A stretch of DNA of 35,519 nucleotides from a virus. Under the pieces are notes generated by a model, which was not told the origin of the DNA, ran no database searches, and saw only the letters and a program-made list of their open reading frames with translations. The stretch spans positions 1 through 35,519 of the IMG/VR virus record IMGVR_UViG_3300046616_000354; one strand, 5' to 3'. The position numbers were made by a program, and so were the translations under genes. This document shows, in pieces, positions 1,734 through 21,675 of the stretch. The stretch's first letter is position 1; each line of letters begins with the position of its first letter.

Positions 1734-2362
1734 CCACCGCGCCCACCCTCTTCGACACCACCACACCGGCCCTCCTGGCACCGCCTGTGCTCGAGACCCG
1801 GCCCCTCGTCGTCGGCCTCGACATCGCCCTCATCACCTCCGGCGTGGCCGGCCCCGGATGGGCCGACCACTTCCGCACCGGCGACCGCCGCGGGGAACAG
1901 CGCCTCACCCACATCGTCGAGACCGCAGCCACCTTCTACCGCAACGCCGACTTCGTCCTCATCGAGGGCGCCGCCTACTCCATGGCCAAGCAGGTCGGCC
2001 ACGACGAGATGTCCGCCGCCCGATGGATGATCCGCTGCGACCTCTGGTGCCGCGGTATCCCCTTCGCCGTCGTCACCCCCGACTCGCGCACCATCTACGC
2101 CACGGGGCGCGCCCGCTGGAAGGACGAGGAGGGGAGGAAGCTCACCCCGAAGCAGGTCAAGGGCAAGGTCCGTGACGAGGCGTCCCTCCGCTACCAGCAG
2201 GACTTCAGTGGTACGGCCCGCTACGACGAGGCCGACGCCTACGTACTGATGGCGATGGGCATGGACTGGCTCGGCTACCCGCTGGCCGAGGTCCCGGAGA
2301 CCCACTCCCGGGCGCTGAAGGGCGTGGCCTGGCCGACGACCACCGTGGCGGTGGCGCGATGA
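1730..2362 (+). CDS. RuvC-like Holliday junction resolvase (RNase H-fold nuclease)
   Basis: 210 residues from GTG 1730. The core VVGLDIAL places an acidic residue (D31) at the end of the first strand, FVLIEG gives a second (E79), and the C-terminal RYDEADAYVL gives D166 and D169. This D-E-D-D set with that spacing is the two-metal site of RuvC-type resolvases, which cut four-way DNA junctions. Many actinophages carry such a gene in the recombination block, as here beside an exonuclease. It likely resolves branched DNA before packaging. An unstructured N-terminal tail of about 24 residues precedes the fold. The fold assignment is strong; junction specificity is inferred. Confidence 0.85.
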   Translation: MTTAPTLFDTTTPALLAPPVLETRPLVVGLDIALITSGVAGPGWADHFRTGDRRGEQRLTHIVETAATFYRNADFVLIEGAAYSMAKQVGHDEMSAARWMIRCDLWCRGIPFAVVTPDSRTIYATGRARWKDEEGRKLTPKQVKGKVRDEASLRYQQDFSGTARYDEADAYVLMAMGMDWLGYPLAEVPETHSRALKGVAWPTTTVAVAR

Positions 2363-4068
2363 TCAAGAAGATTCGGACCGCCACGCACAGGCCGGCCGTC
2401 AGGCGCCGACGCTTCCGCCACGACGAATACGTCGCCGTCGACCTCTTCAGCGGCTTCGGCGGGCTCACCAAGGGCATCGAGGACGCCGGATTCACCACGA
2501 TCATGGCCGCGAACCACAACGAGTACAAAGTCCAGGTCCACGAGCGGAATCACCCCGACGCCGAGCACTGGATTGCCGACCTGGTCGACCCTGACGCCGC
2601 CGACTACCACTCCGCCCGCGACCTTCCCTCGGCTGACCTCTTGGCCGCAGGAGTGAGCTGCGTCAACCACTCACTCGCCAACACGATCAAGGCGTACGAG
2701 CAGGGCCAGTCCCTGTTCGAGCTGGAGGACCCCGACTACGAGGCGCGCGTCACCAGGTCCGAGCGGGACCGAGCGACCGCGAACTGCGTCCTGCAGTACG
2801 CCGCCAAGCACCACCCGCGACTCATCCTCGTCGAGTGCACCACCCAGCTCACCTCATGGGGGCCCGCGGTCCAGGGCAAGGCCAAGGTCGGGGACGGCAG
2901 CACCTACCGGTGGTGGCTCAACCAGTTCGATCTGCTCGGCTACCGGCACAAGGTCCTGTACCTCAACAGCCAGTTCTTCGGGGTCCCGCAGTCCCGGGAC
3001 CGCGGCTACTGGGTGTTCGTCGACAAGTCCCTGCCGATGCCCGACCTGGAGCACCGGCCCGTGTCGCACTGCGGGCGCTGCGACAAGGACGTCGAGGCGG
3101 TGTGGACGTGGAAGACCGGCATCACTCCGACCGGCACGGTGATGTACGGCAAGCAGTACGAGTACCGGTGCCCGTCCTGCCGCCGCCCCGTCGTCCCGCC
3201 GATGACGCCGTCGCTGGCCGCGCTCGACCTCACCGATCTCGGCAGGCGCATCGGCGACAAGCCGGTCAAGACGTTCAAGGACGGCTTCGTCGGGCCGCTC
3301 GCGCGGTCGTCGATGGCGCGAGCGGAACGGTGCCGCCGCCGCTTCGCCGACTTCCCGGCGATCCTCATGCCGGCGAAGGGCGTGCACGGCTCGGAGCGGC
3401 TCCTGCTGCAGCCGATGGCGACGCAGACCAGCCAGCAGGAGACCGCGATCCTGTCGACCGGGCCGGTCGTCCAGCCGCTGTGGGCCCAGGACGCCGCTGA
3501 CGGACTGGCCGCACCGGCGATGGCGCTCGCGGTGGACAACTTCCAGGGTGCCGCGCGCGGCGCCGGGGAGCCGCTGCCCACCCAGGTCGGGTCGGAGACC
3601 CTCGCCGTGCTGTCCTCCGGTGTCATCCCGTACCGGAAGAACACGCTGCCCACGCTGCACAGCGAGGCGATGCCCACCTTCACCTCGGAGCAGATCCCGG
3701 CGGTGCTGACGGCCGCCGGCTGGTACAAGCAGAACGGCCCCAGTGGGAACGAGACCGCGCCTCACCCGGTCACGGACCCGCTCGGCACTCTCACCTCACG
3801 TGACACGACCGCGCTGCTCATGGCCCAGTGGCAGGCGTCGCTCGCCGAACTGCCGCTTGAGGACTGCTTCTACCGGATGATGGCGGCGCACGAGATCGGC
3901 CGTGGCTGCGGCTTCGACGTCGACTTCAACGACTACCGCGGCTCCTTCACCGTCTGGGGCTCCGCCCGTGACCAGGTCGACGGGTTCGGCAACGCAGTCT
4001 CCCCGAAGGTCGGTACCTGGATCGGGGCCCGGCTGCGGGCCGTCCTCCACGGGACGGTGGCGGCATGA
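2359..4068 (+). CDS. DNA cytosine-C5 methyltransferase, atypical, with internal zinc ribbon
   Basis: 569 residues. Motif I, which binds S-adenosylmethionine, is DLFSGFGG (D28-G35). Motif VIII is QSRDR (Q211, R213, R215). The catalytic region departs from the standard enzyme: motif IV reads GVSC with Cys101 but Ser in place of the usual Pro before it, and motif VI is VECTT with Glu159 but Cys in place of the Asn of ENV. Two Cys pairs (C238/C241 and C271/C274) form a zinc ribbon in the target-recognition region. The catalytic Cys and Glu remain, so it is probably active on cytosine, perhaps protecting phage DNA from host restriction. No partner endonuclease is nearby. ATG overlaps the upstream stop. 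Confidence 0.85.
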   Translation: MIKKIRTATHRPAVRRRRFRHDEYVAVDLFSGFGGLTKGIEDAGFTTIMAANHNEYKVQVHERNHPDAEHWIADLVDPDAADYHSARDLPSADLLAAGVSCVNHSLANTIKAYEQGQSLFELEDPDYEARVTRSERDRATANCVLQYAAKHHPRLILVECTTQLTSWGPAVQGKAKVGDGSTYRWWLNQFDLLGYRHKVLYLNSQFFGVPQSRDRGYWVFVDKSLPMPDLEHRPVSHCGRCDKDVEAVWTWKTGITPTGTVMYGKQYEYRCPSCRRPVVPPMTPSLAALDLTDLGRRIGDKPVKTFKDGFVGPLARSSMARAERCRRRFADFPAILMPAKGVHGSERLLLQPMATQTSQQETAILSTGPVVQPLWAQDAADGLAAPAMALAVDNFQGAARGAGEPLPTQVGSETLAVLSSGVIPYRKNTLPTLHSEAMPTFTSEQIPAVLTAAGWYKQNGPSGNETAPHPVTDPLGTLTSRDTTALLMAQWQASLAELPLEDCFYRMMAAHEIGRGCGFDVDFNDYRGSFTVWGSARDQVDGFGNAVSPKVGTWIGARLRAVLHGTVAA

Positions 4069-4397
4069 GCCACTACACCGGGGCCGTTCCCAACACCAAG
4101 CGCCGTGACCCCGTGTGGCAGGACGACGCGCTCTGCCGCAAGGACGACGTCGACAAGGAGCTGTTCTTCCCCGACCGCTCCGACAAAAAGGCCATCGCCG
4201 AAGCCCGGAAGGTCTGCTGGACCTGCCCCGTCATCCAACGCTGCCTGGAGTACGCGTACCGCAATCAGGAAGACCGCGGCACGTGGGGCGGCCTCACCGA
4301 GTGGGAACGGCGCGCCAAGCACGGCCGCAGCCGCAAGGACACCGGACGCGGTGCGGGCATTCAGGCACCGGGCCGCCGCAGCAAGGCCGCCGCATGA
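4065..4397 (+). CDS. WhiB-family Fe-S transcription factor
   Basis: 110 residues with the four cysteines of WhiB proteins: C24, then C51-xx-C54 and C60, which hold a 4Fe-4S cluster. The GTWGG turn at about 72-76 matches the family GVWGG motif and is followed by a basic tail rich in Arg and Lys for DNA contact. WhiB-like proteins are restricted to actinobacteria and their phages and act through the sigma factor to change promoter use; some phage versions interfere with host WhiB function. ATG overlaps the methyltransferase stop by 4 bp. Family assignment is firm; its target genes are unknown. Confidence 0.95.
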   Translation: MSHYTGAVPNTKRRDPVWQDDALCRKDDVDKELFFPDRSDKKAIAEARKVCWTCPVIQRCLEYAYRNQEDRGTWGGLTEWERRAKHGRSRKDTGRGAGIQAPGRRSKAAA

Positions 4398-5602: not shown

Positions 5603-6403
5603 TTGAGCCTCGACGCGCAGGACTGGGTCTGGAACCACTCCCAGGCCAAGAGCACCGCCCGCCTGGTGCTGCTCGCCATCGCCGATAAGGCGTCCGGCGC
5701 CGACTGCTCTGCGTACGCGGGCACCACCATGCTCATCCAGCGCGCCAACGCCGCACGGTCCTCCGTCATCGTCGCCGTCGACCGCCTCGTCGAGTCCGGC
5801 GAACTCGGCATCGTCGAAGGCGTCACCGGCCCCCGCGGCGAGACCCGCTACACCCTCCCCAAAGCCGTCGGTCACCGCCGCGAAGGGGGTCCGAAATCCG
5901 GACCCCCTCGGAATTCGGACCGGTCCGAAAACCGGACCCCCCGGGGTACGGAATCCGGACCCCCCCGGTCCGAAAACCGGACCCCTACCGGTCCGAAATC
6001 CGGACCCCATAACGCAGTTAACGCAGAGACAACAGAAGGAACGCAGAAGAGAGAGCCGCGCACCGCACACAACACCAGCGCACCGCAGCCACAGAGGCCC
6101 CGGCCTGACGGCCGCCTCCCCCTCGACGAAGCCGACTTCCGCATCACCGACACCATGCGCCGCTGGGCAGGCGCCACCTTCCCCAGCCTCGACATCGAGC
6201 ACGAGACCCAGCAGTTCATCAGCCACCACCGCGCCGAGGGCAGCCGCCGCCACTCCTGGCCCGACGAATGGCAAAAGTGGATTCGCCGCTCCGCGAAGTA
6301 CGCGTCCGAGCGCGCCGCACGACCATCGCTCCGCTCCGTGTCCGGCGACTGGCAGCCCTACACCAACCCCACCGACCACTCCGTCTACGAGAACGGATTC
6401 TGA
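5603..6403 (+). CDS. Replication initiator-like protein (lambda O-like) carrying the origin iterons
   Basis: 266 residues from TTG 5603, with GAGAAGGA at the proper distance upstream; no ATG or GTG lies in this part of the frame. Residues 1-85 form a winged-helix domain of the kind found in phage replication initiators (segments RLVLLAIADKAS, SSVIVAVDRLVESGELGIV). Residues about 93-140 are a low-complexity linker rich in Gly, Pro, Ser and Arg, encoded by the iteron array. The C-terminal domain (about 165-266) is Trp-rich. A DnaC-like loader follows at once. This is the arrangement of lambda O and P: an N-domain binding iterons inside its own gene and a C-domain contacting the loader. No sequence similarity to lambda O is claimed. 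Confidence 0.75.
   Translation: MSLDAQDWVWNHSQAKSTARLVLLAIADKASGADCSAYAGTTMLIQRANAARSSVIVAVDRLVESGELGIVEGVTGPRGETRYTLPKAVGHRREGGPKSGPPRNSDRSENRTPRGTESGPPRSENRTPTGPKSGPHNAVNAETTEGTQKREPRTAHNTSAPQPQRPRPDGRLPLDEADFRITDTMRRWAGATFPSLDIEHETQQFISHHRAEGSRRHSWPDEWQKWIRRSAKYASERAARPSLRSVSGDWQPYTNPTDHSVYENGF
5885..6006 (+). repeat. Iteron array, probable replication origin
   Basis: Five 17-bp dyad-symmetric units close to GGTCCGAAAWCCGGACC lie at 5888-5904, 5922-5938, 5945-5961, 5967-5983 and 5990-6006, plus a degenerate copy at 5905-5921. The last four are spaced 22-23 bp, about two helical turns, placing them on one face of the DNA. The first extends to a perfect 9-bp-arm inverted repeat (5885-5907). 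All lie inside the initiator gene. Confidence 0.8.
6007..6055 (+). other. A+T-richer stretch with AACGCAG repeats, candidate DNA unwinding element
   Basis: Directly after the last iteron the base composition falls to near 50% GC, against about 70% around it, and AACGCAG occurs three times (6011-6017, 6020-6026, 6040-6046). In lambda and in iteron plasmids, such a stretch beside the iterons is where the duplex first opens. The role here is inferred from position and composition. Confidence 0.55.
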
Positions 6404-6405
6404 CC

Positions 6406-7137
6406 ATGACCGAACCCGAGAACCTCACAGAACACCGCCCCTCCGCACTCGCCAACCTCATGGCCGGAATCGCCGAGCGCCACCCGCAGATCCAGGCCGG
6501 CCCCGTCGAAGACGAACCCACCCCCGACGAGCCCGGCCACCCCGAATACCACCGCGCCCGCCGCGCCGAATGGGCCCTCGGCCGCTGGACCACAGCCACA
6601 CCGCCCCGCTACCGCCAAGCCACCACCACCCACCCCGACATCCAGCAGTGGGCCGACAACGTCGGCACCAACCCCGAGACCGCCGGATCCCTCCTCCTCA
6701 CCGGAACCACCGGCACCGGCAAAACCCACCAGGCATACGGCGCCCTCCGACGCATCGCCGAAGCCGGACCCCACCGCTACGAGATCATCGCGACCACGGC
6801 CGCCGACATGTACGGACTGCTCCGCCCCAAAGGATCCGAGCGCGGAACAGAAGCCGAACTCGAACGACTCGCCCGCATCCCGCTGCTCCTCCTGGACGAC
6901 CTCGGCTCCGCGAAGTCCAGCGAATGGACCGAGGAGGTCACCTACCGGCTCATCAACGAGCGGTACAACGCCTGCCTCCCGTCGATCTACACCAGCAACC
7001 TCCCCGCCACATCGCCCGACGGCCGAGACATCACCAGCGCCCTCGGCGAACGCATCGCGTCTCGCCTCTCCCAGGACACCCACGTTGTCGCGATGGCCGG
7101 CCCCGACCTCCGCCGCGGACTCAGGAGCGTCTCGTGA
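6406..7137 (+). CDS. DnaC-like AAA+ ATPase, helicase loader
   Basis: 243 residues from ATG 6406. The Walker A motif is GTTGTGKT (residues 100-107) and Walker B is LLLLDDLGS (D164, D165), followed by SEWTEEVTYRLINERY and the sensor region IYTSNLPA, all characteristic of DnaC/IstB-type ATPases. Such proteins load the replicative helicase at the origin. Its place directly after the initiator gene, 2 bp downstream, supports that role. No replicative helicase gene lies in this window, so it may recruit the host DnaB. Confidence 0.9.
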   Translation: MTEPENLTEHRPSALANLMAGIAERHPQIQAGPVEDEPTPDEPGHPEYHRARRAEWALGRWTTATPPRYRQATTTHPDIQQWADNVGTNPETAGSLLLTGTTGTGKTHQAYGALRRIAEAGPHRYEIIATTAADMYGLLRPKGSERGTEAELERLARIPLLLLDDLGSAKSSEWTEEVTYRLINERYNACLPSIYTSNLPATSPDGRDITSALGERIASRLSQDTHVVAMAGPDLRRGLRSVS

Positions 7138-8279: not shown

Positions 8280-9116
8280 GTGACCGACCGACCGCCCGAC
8301 ACCATCCGCGCCTTCAGCTTCGGCGGCGGCCAACAATCCGTCGCCTGCCTCGTCCTCGCCAGCCAAGGCCGCATCGACTACCCGCTGTTCCTGTTCGCCA
8401 ACGTCGGCAAGGACAGCGAGCAGCCGGAGACCCTGCGCTACGTCGAGGAATACGCCCGCCCGTTCGCCGCCAGCCACGGCATCGAGCTCGCCGAGCTCAG
8501 CCGTGTCGGTCGAGCCGGGCCGCGCCGCGGTGAGACGCGCACGCTCCTTGCCGACCTGGAACGGCCGGACTCGAAGAGCATCCCTATCCCGGTCCGTATG
8601 GCCGGGGCCGGTCCTGGCACCCGCCAGTGCACCGACCGCTACAAGATCAAGGTCATTGCTGACGAGCTGGCCCGGCGTGGCGCCACCGAGGAGCGGCCGG
8701 CGACCGTCGGGATCGGGATCAGCCTCGACGAGATCCACCGGGCGAACAACCGGAGCCGCATCCCGCACGAGAGCGTCACGTACCCGCTGCTCGAACTCGG
8801 GTTGCGGCGCACCGACTGCCAGCGCGTCATCACCGCCGCAGGGCTGCCCGTCCCGCCTAAAAGTGCGTGCTGGTTCTGCCCGATGAAGCGGCCGACCGAG
8901 TGGCACGAACTGCGCCGCACCCAGCCCGAGCTGTTCGAGCATGCCTGTGCCCTGGAGGACCAGCTTGTCGAACGGCGGACCCGTCTCGGCAAGGACCCGG
9001 CGTATCTCACCGGGCTCGGCCGGCCGCTGCGCCAGGCGATCCCCGAGGGCGTCGACCTGCTGCCGATGTTCGACGAGGCCGACGGTGCCTGTGACTCCGG
9101 CTACTGCTTCACCTGA
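8280..9116 (+). CDS. PAPS reductase-like (PP-loop, adenine-nucleotide alpha-hydrolase fold) protein
   Basis: 278 residues from GTG 8280. The N-terminal SFGGGQQS (residues 13-20) is the PP-loop that binds the pyrophosphate of an adenine nucleotide in PAPS reductases and DndC-type sulfurtransferases. Further conserved Cys occur in TRQCTDRYKI (about residue 118), CWFC (about 198-201) and at the C-terminus, which could hold a metal or Fe-S cluster. Many actinophages have this gene; a role in sulfur transfer or DNA modification has been proposed but not established. It has its own upstream repeats and a strong terminator, so it appears to be a separate unit. Confidence 0.85.
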   Translation: MTDRPPDTIRAFSFGGGQQSVACLVLASQGRIDYPLFLFANVGKDSEQPETLRYVEEYARPFAASHGIELAELSRVGRAGPRRGETRTLLADLERPDSKSIPIPVRMAGAGPGTRQCTDRYKIKVIADELARRGATEERPATVGIGISLDEIHRANNRSRIPHESVTYPLLELGLRRTDCQRVITAAGLPVPPKSACWFCPMKRPTEWHELRRTQPELFEHACALEDQLVERRTRLGKDPAYLTGLGRPLRQAIPEGVDLLPMFDEADGACDSGYCFT

Positions 9117-14775: not shown

Positions 14776-15903
14776 GTGAAGACGCCCAGCGACCGCCCCA
14801 AGGTCACCGACCTGCAACGCCGACTCATCATCGCCGTCGCCACCGGAGCGGCCGTGATCGCAGCGATCGGCTTCGTCGGCTCCTACGCCGCGGTCGCCAA
14901 GCTCGCCACGGCTAAAGGCTTCGGCGCCTTCGCGCACGCCTTCCCCATCGGCATCGACGCCGGAATCCTCGTCCTCCTCGCCCTCGACCTCCTCCTCACG
15001 TGGCTGCGCATGCCGCTCGCCATGCTCCGCCACACCGCATGGCTCCTCACCACCGCCACGATCGCGTTCAACGCCGCAGCCGCCTGGCCCGACCCCATCG
15101 GCACCGGCATGCACGCCGTAATCCCGGTCCTGTTCGTCGTCGTCGTCGACGCGGCCCGCCACGCGATCGGACGGACCGCCGACATCACGGCCGGACGTCA
15201 CATGGATTCCGTCCGCATGGCGCGCTGGTTCCTCGACCCGATCTCCACGTTCCGGCTGTGGCGCCGGATGAAGCTGTGGGAGCTGCGCTCCTACGACCAG
15301 GTGATCAAGCTGGAGCAGTCCCGGCTCGTCGAGCGGGCCCGGCTGCGCGCGCGTTACGGGCGGCGCTGGCGCAGCAAGGCTCCGGTGTCCGCGGTCATGG
15401 CGCTGCGCCTGACCCGCTACGGGCGGGCTCTGGCCCCGGTCTCAGGTGTCCTCGACATCGAGCACGCCCCGGCTCAGCCTGCACTGCCCCCGGCTGAGCC
15501 GTTGAGCCGTGAGCCTGAGCCCGGCTCAGACCGTGAGCCCGACCGTGAGCCGGGCTTTGAGACGACCGTGCAGACCGCGCTCACCGTCGCCGCACCCGAG
15601 CCCGCACTCCCCTCGACTCCGCCGCCCGTCCGGCCCGTTGACCAGCAGGGATCACGTGAGCCCGTCTTGAGCCCGGCTGAGCCCACCCTCGTGAGCCGCC
15701 CTGAGCCGAGCGAGCCGGACCCTGAGCCCGGAGCCGATCGGATCGAGCAGCAGATCGTCACCCTCGCGTCCCGACTCAGGGACGGGGAGCGGCTCACGAA
15801 GGACACCGCGGCTCAACTCCTCGGCGTGAGCCCGGCCACCGCAGGCCGTCGGCTCAAGGCTGCGCACGGACGGCTCAGCGACGGGACGGGGTTCTACCCG
15901 TGA
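14776..15903 (+). CDS. DUF2637/SpdB-like membrane protein with C-terminal HTH
   Basis: 375 residues from GTG 14776. Four hydrophobic helices lie within residues 15-130 (LIIAVATGAAVIAAIGFVGS; GIDAGILVLLALDLLLTWL; two more). The region fits DUF2637, the family of Streptomyces plasmid spread proteins (SpdB) that help plasmids move between hyphal compartments. Residues about 230-330 are a Pro/Glu-rich linker, and residues about 338-375 form a helix-turn-helix (TKDTAAQLLGVSPATAGRRL). The linker and HTH coding region carries 19 copies of TGAGCC or its complement. Membrane part plus DNA-binding end suggests tethering of DNA to the membrane (inference). Confidence 0.8.
   Translation: MKTPSDRPKVTDLQRRLIIAVATGAAVIAAIGFVGSYAAVAKLATAKGFGAFAHAFPIGIDAGILVLLALDLLLTWLRMPLAMLRHTAWLLTTATIAFNAAAAWPDPIGTGMHAVIPVLFVVVVDAARHAIGRTADITAGRHMDSVRMARWFLDPISTFRLWRRMKLWELRSYDQVIKLEQSRLVERARLRARYGRRWRSKAPVSAVMALRLTRYGRALAPVSGVLDIEHAPAQPALPPAEPLSREPEPGSDREPDREPGFETTVQTALTVAAPEPALPSTPPPVRPVDQQGSREPVLSPAEPTLVSRPEPSEPDPEPGADRIEQQIVTLASRLRDGERLTKDTAAQLLGVSPATAGRRLKAAHGRLSDGTGFYP
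15471..15877. repeat. Dense TGAGCC hexamer array
   Basis: Thirteen copies of TGAGCC (starts 15495, 15503, 15510, 15516, 15534, 15546, 15657, 15668, 15678, 15692, 15702, 15723, 15827) and six of its complement GGCTCA (15471, 15523, 15791, 15810, 15851, 15872) fall in 407 bases. Chance would give well under one. They lie in two codon phases for TGAGCC and three for the complement, so codon or residue preference does not explain them. Two more (16814, 16820) occur in a later gene of the same module. Confidence 0.85.
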
Positions 15904-16064
15904 TCCTCACCGTCCTCTGCCCGCTGGCCGCGCTCCTCGCCGCGATCGGCCTCCACCGCATTGCGCCCCGCCGCGCACCCGGCCTCTACCTGTGGCCGGC
16001 CGCCTGCACCGTCATCCTCCTCGCCCTGCCTACTGCGTACGTCGCCACGATCTGGAGCCACTGA
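15900..16064 (+). CDS. Very small two-helix membrane protein
   Basis: 54 residues from GTG 15900, a 4-bp overlap with the DUF2637 stop. Two hydrophobic helices (LTVLCPLAALLAAIGL and AACTVILLALPTAYVA) with an Arg-rich turn between them. Small Spd-like membrane proteins often sit beside spdB genes in Streptomyces plasmids. Identity otherwise unknown. Confidence 0.6.
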   Translation: MILTVLCPLAALLAAIGLHRIAPRRAPGLYLWPAACTVILLALPTAYVATIWSH

Positions 16065-16065
16065 A

Positions 16066-16572
16066 ATGCCGTACACCCTGATCAGTCTGGGTGGTGTCGC
16101 CGTCGGCGTCGGCATCGTCCTCATGTACCTCATCCGCTGGTGGTTCAAGGAGAAGCGCCAGTGGACCGCCCTCGTCCCGTTCGTTCTCTCCCACATCTAC
16201 GGGCTGCTCGCCGCGCTCGCCACGTTCGGCGCAGCATCTGCACTCGGCGTCGTCACCTGGGCCGTCATCTGGGCTGCGAACGCCGCCGGATACCTTGGCC
16301 TCGTGTGGGGTGTCGGCGGCAACGACCGCGACGTGACCCGCGGGAACCCGGTCGCGCTCACCGACGGCGGGTTCGTGATCGTGTTCCTGTTCACGCTCGT
16401 GTTCATCGCCCTGATCAAGTGGGCGCCCAAGGTGCCGAACGGAAAGCTGTACGCGGGCGCCTTCTCCGGGATGTGCCTGGCCTTGTCCGGCGGCGTAGCA
16501 GGGGTGGCCGCGGTGCCGCTCGGCAGCGCGGCGAACCTGTTGGGATCCGGGTTCACGGGGGCGTTCGGATGA
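16066..16572 (+). CDS. Integral membrane protein of the Spd-like module
   Basis: 168 residues from ATG 16066 with GGAG at 16054-16057. Four or five hydrophobic helices (about residues 5-25, 42-65, 68-85, 103-120, 130-155) and few charged residues. No enzyme motif. Its neighbours are SpdB-like, which suggests a membrane complex, but I cannot name the family. Confidence 0.7.
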   Translation: MPYTLISLGGVAVGVGIVLMYLIRWWFKEKRQWTALVPFVLSHIYGLLAALATFGAASALGVVTWAVIWAANAAGYLGLVWGVGGNDRDVTRGNPVALTDGGFVIVFLFTLVFIALIKWAPKVPNGKLYAGAFSGMCLALSGGVAGVAAVPLGSAANLLGSGFTGAFG

Positions 16573-17243
16573 GCGCCACGGGGGAGCCGGAGGTGGAGGC
16601 CGACGACGCCGAGGAGCCAGGGGAGTCGGGGGAGCCGGACGGAATGAGCGAGCGCACGGCGAAGATCGTGATGCTCGTGGTCGGCCTGCTGGCGATGTGG
16701 GGGATCGTCGCCGTACTCCCGGAGACCGCGTATTTCGTGGCGGGGATCATGGCGTGCCGAGGTTGGGAGAAAGCCCGCGGATGGATCGGCCGGCGCGGCG
16801 AGGACGAGGCCAGTGAGCCTGAGCCGGAGGCCGACGAGACGGTGGTTGGTGCCGCGGAGACGTGGCGCGTGCCGACGTTCCACGAGCTGTGCGAGTCCCT
16901 CGCCCGCGTGGGTACGCCGCACGCGCACATCGCCGTCCTCGCCCACGACTTGGGCACGACGCCCGAGCGGGTGCGGGAGGCGCTCGACGCGTGCGGTGTC
17001 CAGGTGGAGGCCGTACGTATGCAGGGCAGGGGCTCATCCACGGGCGTGAAGGGCGACGCTCTCCCCACTCCCCGATCGACCCTGGGGGGTGTTGTTGGCG
17101 CAGGTCAGCCCGCCAACAACGACAACGACAACGCCTCGGCGACAACCCCAGAGAAGGGGTTGCGTGTAGAGGCCATCGGGCAGGCCGGGACCGTCATCCA
17201 CAACCCGGCCGATGCTGTCCGCCACCACGAGATCGGCCAGTAG
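16569..17243 (+). CDS. Membrane protein with cytoplasmic helical domain, Spd-like module
   Basis: 224 residues from ATG 16569, overlapping the previous stop by 4 bp. An acidic N-terminus is followed by two close hydrophobic helices (about residues 35-70), a Glu/Pro-rich segment, and a helical domain around residues 100-145 that resembles a winged helix (FHELCESLARVG, LGTTPERVREALDACG). The C-terminal 70 residues look disordered, with a run of Asn and Asp. The build, membrane anchor plus possible DNA-binding domain, parallels the DUF2637 protein upstream. Confidence 0.65.
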   Translation: MSATGEPEVEADDAEEPGESGEPDGMSERTAKIVMLVVGLLAMWGIVAVLPETAYFVAGIMACRGWEKARGWIGRRGEDEASEPEPEADETVVGAAETWRVPTFHELCESLARVGTPHAHIAVLAHDLGTTPERVREALDACGVQVEAVRMQGRGSSTGVKGDALPTPRSTLGGVVGAGQPANNDNDNASATTPEKGLRVEAIGQAGTVIHNPADAVRHHEIGQ

Positions 17244-18526: not shown

Positions 18527-18807
18527 GTCGGCTCCTCGCCCGGACGCACCGGACCCGCGCTGAGGTAGCGCTCCTTGTTCGCTTCACGGATGCGGAAGCT
18601 CCAACGAAGGCGGCGCTGCTCTCCCGCGAGGATCTCTTGCCCATCACGCCGCATCTTCTTCGCCACGGATGCCTCGGTCTCGTTGAGGATCCCGTGCATG
18701 GCGAGTGTGCTGGACAGGTAGTGGACGGTGTCTTCCAGTTGCTGCACGCGCTGCTTGAGGTTGTCGATCTGCTCTTCCGGTGTGATGGGCTCCGGGCGGT
18801 CGCTCAT
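18523..18807 (-). CDS. Coiled-coil protein of unknown function
   Basis: 94 residues from ATG 18807. Residues 11-40 (EEQIDNLKQRVQQLEDTVHY) show heptad spacing of Leu and Val typical of a coiled coil; the rest is basic and helical. ATGA overlaps on both sides couple it to its neighbours. Confidence 0.65.
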   Translation of the reverse strand: MSDRPEPITPEEQIDNLKQRVQQLEDTVHYLSSTLAMHGILNETEASVAKKMRRDGQEILAGEQRRLRWSFRIREANKERYLSAGPVRPGEEPT

Positions 18808-19322
18808 GCGCTCTGCTCCTTCTTCGGTCGGCCTCCCTTGCGTGCGCGCCGCTCGGCCAACTCCTGGTCGGCGGCGGCGAGCTCGGCGCGCTCATGCTCG
18901 TTGCCGTGCTGCTCGACGAACGTGCGGACGTGGTCGACGAGGTCGGCGCTCCGGTCGATTCCCTCGCGAGCGGCGGCTGTTCCGTAGGCGTCCCACAGTC
19001 GGCGGGGGATCCGGAAGCGGGTGACGAAGGTGTGGTCCAGCTCGCTCGCGGGGACGCGCGGCTTTGGCGGCTTGGGCACGTGCTGGACGTTGTGCGCGGG
19101 TTTCTCCGTCTTGATCGCCTCGGTCTCGATGGCCAGCGCCTCGGCCCGCGTGTCGTACCAGACGACGGCCTGCCGGGTGACCTGCGGCCACCATGGCTTT
19201 TGTTTCGCGTGGTTGCTCCAGCGCGTGCCGAAGCGCTGGGTGACGCCGACGTACAGCAGCGTTTCATCGGCTGCGTAGAAACGGTAGACGGCTGCGCGTT
19301 CCTCGGCGGTGAGCACGGTCAT
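18804..19322 (-). CDS. GIY-YIG nuclease-like protein with C-terminal helical domain
   Basis: 172 residues from ATG 19322. The N-terminal domain has the GIY-YIG order: VYR (12-14), YVG (24-26), Arg30 and Arg34, a His, then AIETEAI with a likely catalytic Glu near 66, and Asn78. Residues 95-135 (FRIPRRLWDAYGTAA) resemble a ribbon-helix-helix or similar DNA-binding unit, then a charged helix. GIY-YIG enzymes cut DNA in homing, repair and restriction; host-defence or exclusion roles are possible. It is not a homing endonuclease in an intron here. The operon partner upstream is an HTH protein. Confidence 0.75.
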   Translation of the reverse strand: MTVLTAEERAAVYRFYAADETLLYVGVTQRFGTRWSNHAKQKPWWPQVTRQAVVWYDTRAEALAIETEAIKTEKPAHNVQHVPKPPKPRVPASELDHTFVTRFRIPRRLWDAYGTAAAREGIDRSADLVDHVRTFVEQHGNEHERAELAAADQELAERRARKGGRPKKEQSA

Positions 19323-20647: not shown

Positions 20648-20878
20648 ATGACCACGTACACCCCCGCCATCGGCGACCGCATCCTCGTCCGCCGCACCCC
20701 CGGCAACCACGGCTCCGTCGGCGTCATGACCGGCCTCGTCCTCGACGTCCTCACCATTGGCGGCGTCGACGGCATCCTGCACTTCAAGTGCGACCAGGGC
20801 GGCCGCGTCTACCTCGCCACCAACGAGCAGATGGCCGAGATCGGGAAGACGCAGACGATCGAGCGCGCGCCCGAGTAA
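20648..20878 (+). CDS. Small beta-rich protein of unknown function
   Basis: 76 residues from ATG 20648 with TAGGAGG at 20636-20642. Short strands (DRILVRRTPG, SVGVMTGLVLDVLTIGG, RVYLAT) suggest a small barrel. No family recognised. Confidence 0.65.
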   Translation: MTTYTPAIGDRILVRRTPGNHGSVGVMTGLVLDVLTIGGVDGILHFKCDQGGRVYLATNEQMAEIGKTQTIERAPE

Positions 20879-20943
20879 CCCGATGGACCCTCCACTCCCG
20901 CCCCGCCAAACCGCCGACCGTCCGCCGCCCAGGAGAACTTGCC

Positions 20944-21675
20944 ATGCGCACCTACGCCACCGCCCAACTCATCGGCGACCGCAGCCACCAGTGCGACGCC
21001 ACCGCCGTCTACACCGCCCCGTCCGGCGCCCGGGCGTACGTCCTCCTGGACGGCATCGGGTCCACCGACGAGATCCGCGACTGGACCCGCGACGCGGCCC
21101 GACGCGTTGCCCGCGCTGCCGCACGCCGCGGCGACGCCGAGGCCGGCCTCCGCGCGGTGTACGCCCGGTACGCGGCCGAGCCGGACCGTCAGGGCCCGTG
21201 GGCGCGTTACCCGGAAGCGTGCGCGGTCGTGGCCGTCGCCGCACCCGGCCGGCCGCTCACGGTCGCTTGGTGTGGGGATGTCCGCGCTTACGTCCTGGTC
21301 CGCGGTACGGTCCAGCGGCTCACCGAAGACCACAACCTGCGCAGGGTGTTCCCTGCCCGCGACGGCCGGCCTGGCGGGAACCGCAACATCATCACGTCCT
21401 GCCTCGGCTCCACGTACACCGACGACGAGACGAAGGCCGAGTTCGGGCACCCGGCGATCGAGTCCGTCACCCGCTACGCGGAGGACTGCCGTCTCCTCCT
21501 GGCGTCGGACGGCGCGTACGAGCCGCTGGAGGACTCTCTCCGCAACCTCGCCGATCACTTGATCGGCACCCCGGCGGAGGCCGCCCGCGAGTTCACCGAG
21601 TCCGCGATCGCCCACGCTGGCCCGCACGTTGACAACGCCACCGTTCTGGTCGCCGACCTCCGGCCCACTAGCTGA
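20944..21675 (+). CDS. PP2C-like serine/threonine protein phosphatase
   Basis: 243 residues from ATG 20944, with AGGAGA upstream. The metal-binding motifs of the PP2C (PPM) fold are in order: DG in LLDGIGS (D36, G37), CGDVRAYV (D112), LLASDGAYEPL (S188, D189, G190) and VDNATVLV (D230, N231). The first motif near residue 18 is weak. Such enzymes remove phosphate from Ser or Thr of proteins with Mn or Mg. In a phage it could counter host kinases or alter host signalling; no kinase is seen near it. The length suits a compact bacterial PP2C. The family call is firm; the substrate is unknown. Confidence 0.85.
   Translation: MRTYATAQLIGDRSHQCDATAVYTAPSGARAYVLLDGIGSTDEIRDWTRDAARRVARAAARRGDAEAGLRAVYARYAAEPDRQGPWARYPEACAVVAVAAPGRPLTVAWCGDVRAYVLVRGTVQRLTEDHNLRRVFPARDGRPGGNRNIITSCLGSTYTDDETKAEFGHPAIESVTRYAEDCRLLLASDGAYEPLEDSLRNLADHLIGTPAEAAREFTESAIAHAGPHVDNATVLVADLRPTS

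Follow-up and report, generated by a model that had tools for sequence, protein, structure and literature searches.

Among described systems that resemble the locus analysed here is SpdA2/sps of plasmid pIJ101, in which a protein encoded by a Streptomyces mobile element binds DNA at sites within its own coding region and synonymous removal of these sites lowers segregational stability (PMC4170104). Our locus is an array of the hexamer TGAGCC within a gene for a DUF2637 protein with a C-terminal helix-turn-helix (HTH) domain, found in a 35,519-nucleotide stretch of viral DNA (positions 1 to 35,519 of IMG/VR record IMGVR_UViG_3300046616_000354; hereafter the window). The likeness to SpdA2 has limits. 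SpdA2 is small, has a zinc-finger-like match and is not described as a membrane protein (PMC4170104), and while SpdA proteins of 117-163 amino acids go with 2-3 copies of CGTCACGTGACG, the window gene combines a protein of 375 residues with 19 copies of a non-palindromic hexamer. Moreover, sps is a single 12-bp palindrome, in 2-3 copies, that stays the same from plasmid to plasmid, whereas the genes described below have short sites in 15-34 copies, with a word that differs between HTH types.

Other systems share different parts of this arrangement. StbA of plasmid R388 is a single DNA-binding protein that reads a short-repeat array (stbDRs) and is needed for plasmid stability and positioning; its sites, direct repeats of 9 bp, precede the operon, and it is described with neither a membrane domain nor an in-gene array (PMC3098194). 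For comparison with such a single-protein centromere system, the window offers an array and a putative reading HTH, with strong covariation of the two among relatives. TraB, which acts on clt with TRS repeats, is membrane-associated, with a C-terminal HTH and plasmid-specific 7-8 bp repeats (PMC4170104, PMC3583192), but it contains an FtsK-like motor that DUF2637 proteins lack. RacA of Bacillus subtilis is an HTH protein that binds centromere-like sites (ram) and tethers DNA to the membrane, although its anchoring at the pole depends on DivIVA (PMC6593407); its DNA-binding domain profile matches only weakly (E 0.11), and the match did not appear with a plasmid C-terminal domain as query. SpdB2 of pSVH1 is a Streptomyces plasmid integral membrane protein that binds DNA and oligomerises, but its binding is reported as non-specific, as far as the citing paper relates it (cited in PMC4170104). 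Finally, phage lambda has sites in the middle of the gene for the protein that reads them, O (PMC7466680); O, however, is a soluble initiator, and the window phage possesses a separate O-like gene with an in-gene array of its own.

The array and the gene that carries it

The DUF2637-HTH gene occupies 14776..15903 (+ strand) and starts with GTG. Its product belongs to PF10935 (E 1.4e-38; 132.8 bits against a gathering cut-off of 22.8 for the Pfam profile), and its PHROG matches are confined to groups of unknown function (PHROG 29003). AlphaFold2 (AF2) predicts the order membrane domain, linker, HTH, with four long helices at the N-terminus. The DUF2637 domain (Pfam and AF2) covers residues 20-174 (14833..15297, +); the four predicted membrane helices span residues 12-46, 52-76, 82-103 and 107-138, and more helices follow up to residue 213. 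A Pro/Glu/Arg linker (residues 227-315; 15454..15720, +) is probably disordered, the AF2 confidence score (pLDDT) being mostly <50 at residues 227-260 and 272-315. The C-terminal domain (residues 318-368; 15727..15879, +), the putative reader of the array, is modelled on its own as a three-helix HTH with pLDDT 85. The predicted structure agrees with the membrane helices and C-terminal HTH that the earlier note had read from the sequence. An Xre-like HTH match to the C-terminal domain is weak (E 7e-4, under the Pfam cut-off), and fold searches of the PDB gave no match for the membrane domain and nothing beyond generic HTH folds, all with E > 0.001.

Our recount gave the same 19 copies, on both strands of 15471-15877, as that note. 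Thirteen read TGAGCC on the plus strand (15495, 15503, 15510, 15516, 15534, 15546, 15657, 15668, 15678, 15692, 15702, 15723 and 15827) and six read GGCTCA, i.e. the minus strand (15471, 15523, 15791, 15810, 15851 and 15872). Most lie in linker codons, and the array extends past the linker, with five copies (15791-15877) within the HTH codons. The note's chance expectation of about 0.2-0.3 is close to that of dinucleotide shuffles (~0.28 per 407 bases). The whole window holds 41 copies versus 24.6 in such shuffles, and the 22 outside the array, which the note had described as single scattered copies, are at background level. It had also singled out two copies in the gene at 16569, the second downstream of the DUF2637 gene; this tandem TGAGCC pair does exist (16814..16825, +; copies at 16814 and 16820), but it falls within the background and may represent outlying sites or chance.

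All three codon phases are used on the two strands together: TGAGCC is in phase 2 in nine cases (xEP) and in phase 1 in four (xSP or xSR), while GGCTCA is in phase 0 once, in phase 1 three times and in phase 2 twice. Synonymous-codon shuffles of the gene contained 3.4 copies on average (sd 1.7, maximum 10 in 5000 shuffles), and even the best of all hexamers in each synonymous shuffle averaged 8.2 and reached 19 in 0/300; these controls are conservative, as the composition of the protein is itself shaped by the sites. Codons preceding GAG-CC end in T in 9/11 cases, versus 12/136 elsewhere, such codons being rare here, and the bias holds family-wide (156/194 versus 203/2511). Among twelve relatives, linker identity drops to 46%, yet every gene keeps 15-34 copies, and the sites turn over: of 67 aligned site positions, only six are common to at least 10 members. 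It is therefore established that selection acts on the array as DNA and not via the protein. The note's suggestion that protein sequence alone does not drive the hexamers is supported, and neither of the refuting outcomes named with it was observed: counts in homologous genes are far above codon and residue prediction, and the array persists despite divergence of the linker.

EP and SP are frequent in the linker, and the hexamers might have been a by-product of Glu-Pro, Ser-Pro or Arg-Leu repeats or of codon bias. The spread over phases and strands, the synonymous shuffles and the third-position T bias rule out such an artefact, and similar arrays occur in non-coding plasmid DNA (see below); we give this explanation virtually no weight. 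It could also be argued that the protein, combining an HTH with a membrane domain, is a membrane-bound transcription regulator, and that the array, situated in and beside its own gene, is an operator or roadblock for that gene or operon. This is unlikely, since operators need far fewer than 15-34 sites, and those seen here are not at a promoter but 700-1100 bp into the gene or past its stop codon; furthermore, copies elsewhere in the window do not exceed background.

Array words and HTH types in phages and plasmids

Homologous phage genes carry equally dense arrays in the same place, composed of about a dozen different words; the counts of relatives given here are incompletely corrected for phylogeny. 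The words are TGTCCG (L014, L018, L046, L199), TGTTCG (L015, L019), TGATGCG (L028, L030), TGAGGCG (L032), CGGCTGC (L026, L027, L034, L035, L038, L045), CGGATGC (L024, L040, L208), CGGGTTC (L031), CGGGTGC (L036, which is phage VWB), GGGTCCG (L037) and GGGGCG (L025, L039, L041, L063), and two further words accompany other C-termini (TGCCAG in L209 and CTGGCG in L201). The weakest case is L028, whose top hexamer is no better than in synonymous shuffles. GCTTCGG-like words in L202-L206 were enriched versus the locus but not versus synonymous shuffles and were left out of the count, and L043, L044 and L047 gave no array signal in the shuffle test. Among chromosomal DUF2637 genes, 0/76 exceeded the shuffles and no arrays were found; the C-termini of their products look different. 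TGAGCC as a universal DUF2637 signal is thus ruled out, since words differ by clade, and the idea that this very hexamer would be conserved in DUF2637 genes generally has to be abandoned.

The covariation of word and HTH is itself established. C-terminal domains are 76% identical in pairs sharing a word and 28% identical in pairs with different words, while the corresponding values for the membrane domain are 85% and 75%. The gene of L018 illustrates this: its membrane domain is 95-96% identical to those of the window and L002, its HTH only 28-30%, and its word is TGTCCG instead. By sequence comparison, then, the word goes with the HTH type and not with the membrane domain, and the putative reading head and its word diversify together. 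In the FtsK-gamma-like group of HTHs, the correspondence extends to the residues of the recognition helix: QRRAP goes with CGGCTGC, Q[AP]RA[TQ] with CGGATGC and Q[AK]KAQ with CGGGT[TG]C. L208, found after this table had been drawn up, has QARAQ and GGATGC, as the table predicts.

The weak resemblance to FtsK gamma of the HTHs of several DUF2637 phages (PF09397, E 0.005-0.3, below the cut-off) recalls Streptomyces TraB, which reads repeated 8-bp motifs via a C-terminal winged HTH (PMC4170104, PMC3583192), and might suggest that the array is a loading site for a TraB/FtsK-type translocase, one of the two roles that the earlier note had proposed. The record is a fragment of the phage genome, and domain and PHROG scans covered part of the window open reading frames (ORFs); no FtsK/SpoIIIE/TraB-like motor domain was detected in the DUF2637 protein or the other ORFs scanned. 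In addition, the words track the HTH of the motor-less DUF2637 protein, and the window's own HTH is without a PF09397 match. A translocase loading site is therefore quite improbable; a recognition array for membrane anchoring, the other role in that proposal, is the reading we prefer. On plasmids that carry DUF2637 arrays, conjugation functions are provided by separate genes of TcpC-like or T4CP-like type.

DUF2637 proteins are also encoded by some Streptomyces plasmids, with a C-terminal domain that shares 31-39% identity with the window's. Their arrays are placed differently: phage clades fit the sites into linker codons, plasmids into the non-coding DNA immediately behind the gene. The TGACCG arrays comprise mostly 11-20 copies, on both strands, in a stretch that directly follows the DUF2637 stop codon, and the gene order is parA-parB-DUF2637-array wherever annotation extends that far. 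The plasmid set consists of one Ser variant and 25 loci, all of a single HTH clade, in which the helix contains [KR]TGQ, with Lys in 14 and Arg in 11. The helix xxKTGQR goes with a TGACCG array in 14/14 loci, and xxRTGQR with TGGCCG in 8/11. This Lys/Arg rule was drawn from the first part of the set; the later-fetched L218-L231 fit it, except for L221 (without array) and L230 (mixed array; a near-copy of L215). On the HTH-domain tree, the TGGCCG label must have changed at least twice, given the starred branches, and common descent alone is therefore an unlikely explanation. The Ser variant, L229, has a TGACCG array of 13 copies (1201-1365), so that the helix-word code is no simple two-state switch.

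Taking into account that the plasmid DUF2637 genes come after parAB, the array might be read by another protein, i.e. a plasmid ParB or some phage protein, with the DUF2637 HTH reading something else. We found no ParA or ParB match among the window ORFs scanned, even though the plasmid relatives do adjoin parAB. The ParBs of plasmid SCP1 bind few, long palindromes, each using three inverted repeats of 13-19 bp and not hexamer arrays (PMC13245405), and one DUF2637 helix residue co-varies with one array base. A separate reader is accordingly as improbable as a translocase.

Further arrays were noticed around phage DUF2637 genes. In VWB, a CGCACCC array runs on from gp24, the DUF2637 homologue of this phage, into the next gene, gp25 (L141 17716-18299), whose 5' part holds its second half; gp25 has an extra N-terminal half that is absent from its window homologue, a downstream membrane protein of unknown function (15961..16572, +; PHROG 16379). 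L037 has a second, 6-bp-phased array of GAGTCC (6439-6571) downstream of its in-gene GGGTCCG array. Gilgamesh-type phages (most of L049-L060, and L152) have dense GCGCGC/CGCGCC arrays at a distance of ~2.3-2.5 kb from the DUF2637 ORF, on its downstream side; that of L152 (7296-8077) lies mostly in a 740-bp gene-free stretch, with genes for DUF2637, a DnaC-like loader and a Sak4-like ATPase nearby. Long DUF2637 genes with another C-terminal type have arrays of the palindrome TGCGCA that overlap their 3' end and continue past it (L086 6691-7053 and L143 4694-5097). The clusters of both these kinds are genuine.

A candidate membrane anchor for phage and plasmid DNA

Several grades of confidence apply to what the array does. 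Physical binding by the HTH of the DUF2637 protein, supported by the covariation, is very likely, and tethering of the DNA to the membrane is likely, while a role in segregation or positioning in particular is put forward tentatively. Such a role is favoured because of the parAB neighbourhood in plasmids, the size of the arrays and the precedent of SpdA2/sps. As a whole, we consider it rather probable that the array serves the HTH encoded with it as a binding platform, by which phage or plasmid DNA is held at the membrane in a centromere-like manner. The DUF2637 domain, with its four helices, would hold the protein in the membrane, and the long disordered linker would reach out so that the HTH at its end could read the array; the linker codons can house the sites because the linker is free of structural constraint. 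With sites clustered in numbers of 15-30, many membrane-held molecules acting together would attach the phage DNA to the inner membrane, and such a centromere-like anchor would position, hold or spread the DNA of the element in the hypha, in segregation or in membrane attachment of replicating DNA.

Some points weigh against this anchor. Covariation in the phages is partly a matter of linkage, the word and the HTH being adjacent on the DNA. The remaining Arg plasmids deviate from the rule, with a mixed array in two (11 versus 6-7 copies) and none in one. Arrays on parAB plasmids could serve ParB. Phages of the VWB type integrate, having an integrase and attP, and need no partition while integrated; the array of such phages may instead act early in infection or during lytic replication and growth.

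Genes for terminase, portal, head protease and major head protein at 22.9-29.0 kb mark the window as a piece of a tailed-phage genome, and we infer a Streptomyces host because the DUF2637 gene has close relatives in genomes, phages and plasmids of this genus. An O-like initiator gene lies at 5603-6403 and forms, with a gene for a DnaC-like loader, the segment 5603-7137. Inside the O-like gene is a CGGACC/GGTCCG array of 10 copies (5888-6006), in three phases and on both strands, which is the probable replication origin of the phage. The DUF2637 array might itself be taken for an origin. Sites placed among the linker codons of the gene whose product would bind them repeat the layout of the lambda iterons, the origin of lambdoid phages being found midway in O (PMC7466680), and some DUF2637 genes are near dnaB or DnaC-like genes. 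However, the DUF2637 gene is not of the O-like initiator family, its product is a predicted membrane protein also present on plasmids with ParAB, and the phage has its own initiator and loader. Because a separate array exists inside the O-like gene, as in lambda O, the origin probably lies away from the DUF2637 gene, and an origin in the TGAGCC array is about as unlikely as an operator.

Elsewhere, the window contains a C5 cytosine methylase gene directly followed by a WhiB-family gene (2359-4397), genes for a PAPS-reductase-like protein (8280-9116; PHROG 424) and for a protein with a GIY-YIG endonuclease domain (18804-19322, - strand), and a PP2C/SpoIIE-like phosphatase gene (20788-21675; PHROG 5650) ~1.2 kb ahead of the terminase gene.

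Implications for DUF2637 proteins

DUF2637 was present in 61/61 sampled Streptomyces genomes, usually in several copies, while among the 5.39 million open-access papers searched the term turned up in a single one, once, a potato-scab genome report. The arrays are the first concrete hint at the role of the mobile-element versions of this protein, and the array-HTH pairs point to an undescribed protein family that would tether DNA to the membrane. It is possible, although we hold this more loosely than the segregation role, that DUF2637-HTH proteins and their arrays constitute a new class of centromere system, in which an integral membrane protein alone ties the element to the membrane via self-encoded hexamers, and open-ended protein-word specificities let many elements coexist in one multi-genomic hypha. 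The locus is also a clear example of how the coding sequence of a disordered linker can conceal DNA sites. With about a dozen natural HTH-word pairs, one of which differs by a Lys/Arg and an A/G exchange, a recognition code could be read, and the positioning of DNA by phages and plasmids in multi-genomic hyphae would become directly testable.
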